Source: a virus
IMG/VR virus record: IMGVR_UViG_3300031972_002039
Span: 1 to 53,425 of that record
Length of the DNA stretch: 53,425 bases
Direction: 5' to 3' (one strand)
Below, piece after piece: positions 22,813-22,884 of this stretch. Numbering within the stretch: the first letter of the stretch is position 1; every line of letters starts with the position of its first letter. Position numbers and translations under genes: made by a program. Under the pieces are notes generated by a model. That model did no database searches. It was not told the origin of the DNA and saw nothing but the letters and a program-made list of their open reading frames with translations.

Positions 22813-22884
22813 TGGGCATAGTGGGGATCGAACCCACGACAGACGATTTTAGAGATCGCCGTTCTACCGCTGAACTATACGCCC
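22813..22884 (-). tRNA. tRNA with CUA anticodon (amber suppressor)
   Basis: A 72-nt cloverleaf: acceptor GGGCGTA/TATGCCC (one G-U), D stem GTTC/GAAC with AGCGGTA loop, anticodon stem GCGAT/ATCGT, loop CTCTAAA, T stem GTGGG/CCCAC with TTCGATC loop, discriminator A. The conserved U33 places the anticodon at 22850-22852 as CUA, cognate to UAG. A UCU (Arg) reading would need C33 and is rejected. The loop is one base from that of tRNA-Trp (CUCCAAA), but the discriminator is A, so the amino acid is unknown. CCA is not encoded. Confidence 0.9.

Follow-up and report, generated by a model that had tools for sequence, protein, structure and literature searches.

In the pyrrolysine and selenocysteine systems, stop codons in few genes are read by a dedicated tRNA, and the inserted residue is functional and specially made. 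In prfB, the gene of release factor 2, an early in-frame UGA serves autoregulation, with +1 frameshifting taking place in competition with RF2. Among phages, stop-codon recoding with suppressor tRNAs is known from crAss-like, Lak and jumbo phages that use code 15 (PMC13037316; see also PMC9523058). Two CUA tRNAs were reported for the jumbo Xanthomonas phage XacN1, and no target genes were found by the authors (PMC5852040); in the RsoM2USA report the UAGs were only counted (PMC8504454). Neither suppressor tRNAs in phages nor the use of code 15 is new (PMC13037316). A search made largely outside subscription papers found no literature on early stops in phage PTH2 genes, and the proposed early-stop lock on phage PTH2 is new to the literature searched.

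It was proposed, with considerable confidence and from sequence comparison, that the CUA tRNA described here is a key to genes locked by an early stop, and that its effect is gene-specific and involves no genome-wide recoding.

The suppressor tRNA and its locus

The window, i.e., the whole stretch of 53,425 bases that was analysed, belongs to a record classed as linear and is therefore probably a fragment of the virus genome. Its baseplate gene was closest to those of Microcystis phage Mel-JY01 and Flavobacterium immuto phages, which identifies the virus as a tailed phage similar to them. The features of the locus are collected in Table 1.

Table 1. Coordinates of the suppressor tRNA, the putatively locked genes and their neighbours in the window
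Feature	Positions	Strand	Remarks
CCA-adding enzyme	19304..20920	(+)	PolyA_pol head and HD; Pfam 3e-32
Gene C, hypothetical	21698..22042	(-)	begins with an ATG overlapping the gene B end; free of in-frame TAG
Gene B, PTH2-fold protein	22039..22380	(-)	113 aa when read through; shares an ATGA with the end of gene A
In-frame TAG, codon 3 of gene B (the putative lock)	22372..22374	(-)	
Gene A, CNC-motif protein	22377..22688	(-)	103 aa when read through; ATG at 22688, TGA at 22377
In-frame TAG, codon 17 of gene A	22638..22640	(-)	
Hairpin and T-run, possible terminator, between tRNA and gene A	22711..22749	(-)	By eye
Amber-suppressor tRNA, anticodon CUA (the putative key)	22813..22884	(-)	ARAGORN, Rfam tRNA, own-record search
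Ro60/TROVE-vWA protein, RNA-binding neighbour upstream of the tRNA	23691..25193	(-)	Pfam TROVE 9.8e-23

The first-pass annotation had described a complete tRNA with U33, the anticodon loop CUCUAAA and the anticodon CUA, which was borne out by ARAGORN and the Rfam covariance model; its last base A was confirmed in the Rfam tRNA alignment. The sequence scored 67.3 bits (E 1.4e-12) against the tRNA family RF00005, well above the gathering score of 29, with all 71 model positions aligned. ARAGORN, suggested earlier as a check on this region, was run and called tRNA-Pyl(cta), a label based on the anticodon CTA alone. Among named phages, the closest DNA match was to Pectobacterium phage CBB, in a gene annotated as tRNA-Pyl (81.6% over 76 nt). 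The anticodon is complementary to the stop codon UAG, as is characteristic of nonsense suppressors. Decoding of UAG by this tRNA is well supported indirectly, because genes A and B can be read whole only when UAG is decoded, and because other phages, too, carry stop codons that correspond to their suppressor anticodons. When the anticodon was masked, the nearest sense tRNAs among those collected were of the Lys and Met types, a result that says nothing firm on charging. The assignment of an amino acid from the nearest sense tRNA was dropped, as the votes were split (Lys 13, Met 11, Trp 6, Arg 6, others).

Genes A and B follow the tRNA downstream in the same direction, starting ~125 bases away, and their in-frame TAGs were absent from the first-pass annotation. 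That annotation had also given the tRNA its own promoter and terminator. A consensus scan recovered neither at the places proposed: promoter-like sites numbered 8 against a mean of 7.6, which corresponds to chance, and the one terminator-like site lay at another place. The hairpin listed in Table 1, with a 9-bp stem followed by ATTTTTG, went unreported by the scan, which has a loop limit of 8. With both signals unrecovered by the scan, the single-gene transcription unit is unproven.

The CCA-adding enzyme could mature the suppressor tRNA. Upstream of the Ro60 gene, degenerate tRNA-like pieces were arranged in an array (25247-25720, (-)), in which GAGTTACTTCG occurred three times; besides a sub-threshold tRNA (23.1 bits), it held a tRNA-Lys that scored weakly, at 33.7 bits, and over its inner part only. 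The array could be a set of Y-RNA-like partners of Ro60; Rfam detected no Y RNA in it.

The genes with early stops

Gene B opens with ATG-AAG-TAG, and the first ATG, GTG or TTG after the TAG is codon 24, within the conserved core. Its frame had the top codon score of the three (15.3 versus -13.2 and -22.0). By tblastn, 222 phage records were matched, and in most of the hits listed the homology began at residues 8-9, i.e., mostly 5-6 codons past the TAG. Searches of IMG/VR for close relatives with gene B alone returned nothing, and one profile search of genome contigs with the PTH2 alignment returned no relative; relatives in IMG/VR were found by the alignment-based scans there.

Gene B scored 14.7 bits (E 0.036) against Pfam PTH2 (PF01981), below the gathering score of 23, a cut-off exceeded by its relatives in XacN1 (25.3 bits) and L141 (26.2). 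The PTH2 family profile matched archaeal and human PTH2 in the PDB, with E down to 4.6e-8. A model of the read-through protein (pLDDT 90.7, pTM 0.84) was assigned the PTH2 fold by Foldseek (PDB 3erj, E 8.9e-8, TM 0.79), with ~15-24% identity to the PTH2 structures matched (PDB 3erj, 2zv3, 1q7s). The residue inserted at the UAG probably does not matter, because the stop falls within the first ten residues of the model, which have a mean pLDDT of 62. At presumed active-site positions of the profile alignment, the GK of cellular PTH2 was aligned to GY, and DAG to EPD, in the phage proteins. Since some residues conserved in cellular PTH2 were not kept, the enzyme activity of phage PTH2 is uncertain, and its chemistry may differ from that of the cellular enzyme.

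The codon support of gene A was weak (0.8 bits overall), which counts against the lock-and-key proposal. No match to gene A was found among 32 related or huge-phage records, and a close-relative search of IMG/VR with its post-TAG part returned nothing; an alignment-based scan did find relatives. A homologue in Pseudomonas phage Astolliot (E 1e-9) was aligned over residues 1-87, on both sides of the TAG. Its frame opens with ATG-AAA-GAA-TAG, and a cta tRNA, annotated as tRNA-Leu, lies just upstream. Three relatives from IMG/VR open with ATG-AAA-NNN-TAG and have a cta tRNA in the locus. Hence, ATG-x-x-TAG and a cta tRNA in the locus occurred together in 4/4 gene A relatives, which are mutually close and in which no clear PTH2 was found. 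Astolliot has Lys where gene A of the window has its TAG, so the stop appears to have changed position while the lock was retained.

In several phages an HD-domain protein adjoins PTH2 or is fused to it. This partner carries a TAG in 5/6 lineages, the exception being ME3 with an HD gene free of TAG. The in-frame TAG was codon 4 in LR745206, codon 5 from the nearest ATG in L127, and codon 47 in CBB and GAP32, where the record shows two ORFs. In the fusions of either order (HD-PTH2 in XacN1 and CM1, PTH2-HD in L141), a single TAG is located at the joint N-terminus. As fusions exist in both orders, a joint function of PTH2 and the HD protein is suggested. Loci L148, L270 and L141 hold fused PTH2 and HD-domain proteins, with both orders represented.

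Conservation of the stop and its match to the tRNA

The set of PTH2 genes comprised 79 loci, which were grouped at 85% identity into 53 clusters and were taken from huge phages, from IMG/VR scans with two alignments (21 and 35 more) and from 17 other named-phage loci; Lak-B4 and Lak-B5, which have no early TAG, and most of the 222, 29 and 40 search-matched records lie outside it. In the first set examined, five huge phages with PTH2 proteins 32-41% identical, the gene opened with M-x-TAG or M-x-x-TAG in 5/5. Across the whole set, an ATG followed by 1-7 codons and a TAG ahead of the core was found in 36 of the 53 clusters; among these, an ATG, GTG or TTG between the TAG and the core was present in XacN1 only (an ATG four codons past the TAG). 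Two mycobacteriophage clusters were ambiguous (ATG-TAG-GTG or GTG-TAG-GTG). An early TAA was found in one cluster (L146), an early TGA in two (L395, L399), and no such early stop in 12, e.g., RaK2, Hallingskeid, phiWae14, Lak phages, L139 and L142. Many of the early-stop clusters were <45% identical to the window protein, and they came from isolates as well as metagenomes.

The baseplate gene of relatives served as the control because a crude first scan for early stops was too noisy (33 TAG, 31 TAA, 12 TGA); 15 of the 33 TAG cases in that scan were PTH2 or HD genes. An early stop was found in 0/78 baseplate loci, i.e., 80 loci minus L022 and L036, in which the match starts near the edge of the sequence stretch.

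Some loci departed from the common arrangement. In L383 (5940-6010) and L142 (5960-6010), where no suppressor tRNA was found, a short frame from the ATG hits a stop and the PTH2 core lies in the +1 frame; perhaps +1 frameshifting replaces suppression there, or an assembly error occurred. The Lak locus L123 has ATG-x-x-TAA in frame upstream of a normal ATG, and in the Lak phages L123 and L151 a UUA-anticodon tRNA lies 0.6-0.7 kb upstream of PTH2.

A cta tRNA was called by ARAGORN within the locus in 26/38 TAG clusters (mycobacteriophages included) versus 1/12 clusters with no early stop (Fisher p 4.6e-4, in a test that ignores relatedness and on loci of at most ~12 kb). The stop codon and the anticodon also changed together: a UUA-anticodon tRNA was found in the TAA locus and UCA-anticodon tRNAs in both TGA loci, and cta was absent from all three. 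Over the 79 loci cta was the commonest anticodon (50), followed by cat (34). Elsewhere in five more TAG genomes (LR745206, LR756502, XacN1, CM1, LR756511) a cta tRNA was also found, which gives 31/38, a count based on wider searches unevenly applied to the TAG and non-TAG groups. These were run in 20-kb pieces, which could miss a tRNA spanning a piece border, and covered 6 TAG genomes (XacN1 over 70 kb only, LR756511 over 300 kb only) and 5 without the TAG. A cta tRNA was found in 0/5 of the complete genomes and entire contigs in which PTH2 starts normally. Several cases count against the association: LR756504 has the TAG start and no cta tRNA was found in its whole 636 kb; the TAG clusters L396, L400, L401, L402, L404 and L405 had no cta tRNA within the locus; and L407 has a cta tRNA yet a normal ATG start of PTH2.

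The CTA tRNAs of LR745206 and LR756502 (L192 at 7340 and L261 at 9683 (-)) have odd D-arms and similar sequences and are missed by ARAGORN at default settings; at lowered thresholds its output was mostly noise. ARAGORN read the anticodon CTA in tRNAs of Arash (L266, 7307-7381, annotated tRNA-Phe) and Astolliot (L410, 1141-1216, annotated tRNA-Leu), and in the annotated tRNA-Arg of Phabba (L150, 3465-3535). Two UCA-anticodon tRNAs accompany a normal PTH2 start in L408, and four-base anticodons (gtag, ttac) were reported by ARAGORN in the huge phages L100 (1947-2020) and L097 (580-670).

The same observations were considered under other explanations. The first-pass annotation had hinted at lineage-wide stop-codon recoding, and with TAG read as an amino acid genome-wide (code 15) the TAGs of genes A and B would be just two of many. 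Jumbo phages with code 15 and CTA tRNAs are described in a published report (PMC13037316), and some relatives may use TAG widely, given a second in-frame TAG within the PTH2 body of LR756501 (L004, at 6094) and L137. However, reading TAG as sense lifted the coding coverage of the window only from 0.934 to 0.937, and TAG terminates 9 of its 75 non-overlapping ORFs, including those of an SNF2-type helicase and a dUTPase, so that the many in-frame TAGs and the loss of TAG as a stop that mark code 15 phages were not found in the window. TAG likewise ends 55/675, 62/614 and 123/707 ORFs in three huge phages, and the early TAG is also present in CBB, GAP32, ME3 and Arash, where the neighbouring genes are annotated as ordinary ORFs. 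Genome-wide reassignment was thus judged very improbable. The dUTPase gene (26029-26466, (-)) that ends in TAG would continue for 76 further open codons if the TAG were read. Alternatively, PTH2 might be translated from a rare or later start codon downstream of the stop, which would make ATG-x-TAG an unused or leader ORF. In mycobacteriophages the annotated start of PTH2 is the GTG behind the TAG, for which a GAAGG is suitably placed; the XacN1 gene is annotated from the ATG past its TAG, and GTG and TTG follow the TGA in L395. Most PTH2 clusters nevertheless offer no ATG, GTG or TTG between the stop and the core. Of 41 clusters, 18 have a Shine-Dalgarno-like tetramer 4-16 nt ahead of the ATG closest to the stop, and none has one ahead of the codon that follows the stop. 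The clearest start is that of CBB, in which GAGGAAATAAAA is followed by ATG-GCA-CAA-TAG; in the public annotation CBB_406 begins late, and the gene is unannotated in Serratia phage BF and the Erwinia SNUABM phages. A late start, which would also leave the match between stop and suppressor anticodon unexplained, was considered quite improbable.

It is scarcely credible that the genes are decayed or contain assembly errors, with the tRNA and the TAG unconnected: the weak codon support of gene A and the origin of the window from only a 53-kb fragment would fit such an explanation, but the identical placement of the stop in clusters so diverged and of such varied origin, and its absence from the baseplate control, would not. 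More weight, within the range of the unlikely, was given to expression of the tRNA mainly for another end, such as the readthrough of host genes, with PTH2 as a by-product. A suppressor would be expected to act widely, since UAG also terminates phage genes here and presumably those of the host; against this stand the coordinated change of stop codon and anticodon and the lack of the tRNA in all five whole-searched phages with an unlocked PTH2.

Proposed mechanism and comparison with known systems

The sequence shows the tRNA and its anticodon, the in-frame stops and how they are conserved, the correspondence of stop to anticodon and, in most cases, the lack of a usual alternative start; we infer the charging of the tRNA, the readthrough and its amount, and the purpose of the lock. 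According to the proposal, a ribosome would initiate at the gene B AUG, read two codons and meet the UAG, where it would halt when the phage tRNA is missing. With the phage tRNA present, an amino acid would be inserted at the UAG, within the N-terminal tail modelled at low confidence, and the ribosome would go on to make the PTH2-fold protein. Gene A would be locked likewise, at its codon 17. This design would apply across phages to PTH2, its HD partner and the gene A relatives, with UAG, UAA or UGA matching the suppressor carried.

As to the purpose of the lock, the most likely one, held tentatively at somewhat under an even chance and argued by analogy with the prfB circuit of release factor 2, is that the amount of a peptidyl-tRNA-handling enzyme would be made to follow suppressor activity. 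Early peptidyl-tRNAs often drop off, so the position of the stop suits this purpose. A suppressor acting at codons 3-5 would yield short peptidyl-tRNAs, and readthrough elsewhere could strand ribosomes; with PTH2 output tied to suppressor activity, recycling would be matched to need. A timing switch, by which the locked proteins would be delayed pending synthesis, maturation and charging of the phage tRNA, comes second and was regarded as rather unlikely. More generally, it is moderately likely that many large phages place a stop just past the start codon of genes for tRNA maintenance (PTH2, HD, gene A), with a suppressor as the sole key and with stop and anticodon co-evolving. The output of such genes would sense whether production, maturation and charging of phage tRNA take place, or how strongly that tRNA competes with release factors, and would tune tRNA recycling.

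Suppressor tRNAs of phages with no obvious recoding had no known targets, and a conserved candidate target is named here, for which the covariation of stop codon and anticodon provides a natural check. If true, the proposal would explain missing or truncated public annotations (CBB_406, GAP32_397, Serratia phage BF and the Erwinia SNUABM phages) and would add a stop-codon switch to the means by which phages control translation.

The likeness of the phage protein to archaeal and eukaryotic PTH2 consists in the fold and the profile match; it differs in its low identity, in some conserved residues and in the proposed gating by a stop. With prfB the locus shares an early in-frame stop that would gate a translation-factor gene and tie its level to the decoding of that stop; such a stop in a translation-related gene was found in 36 (TAG), 1 (TAA) and 2 (TGA) of the 53 clusters. 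Whereas prfB uses a +1 frameshift and competition with RF2, the suppressor tRNA would be the gate in the phage lock, and the core of the gated clusters lies in the ATG frame, which leaves no +1 frameshift to be made at the stop, L142 and L383 being possible exceptions. A dedicated tRNA and few target genes are features shared with the pyrrolysine and selenocysteine systems; the phage residue, however, would be placed in a variable N-terminal tail. In XacN1, the frame of the HD-PTH2 gene ORF364 opens upstream with ATG-AAG-TAG. A phage-borne CUA tRNA expected to let UAG be read as sense is held in common with code 15 phages. In those, TAGs occur in many genes, whereas here UAG is still used as a stop and few families carry a single, mostly start-proximal one; if the proposal is true, this would be regulatory nonsense suppression, distinct from reassignment of the genetic code.
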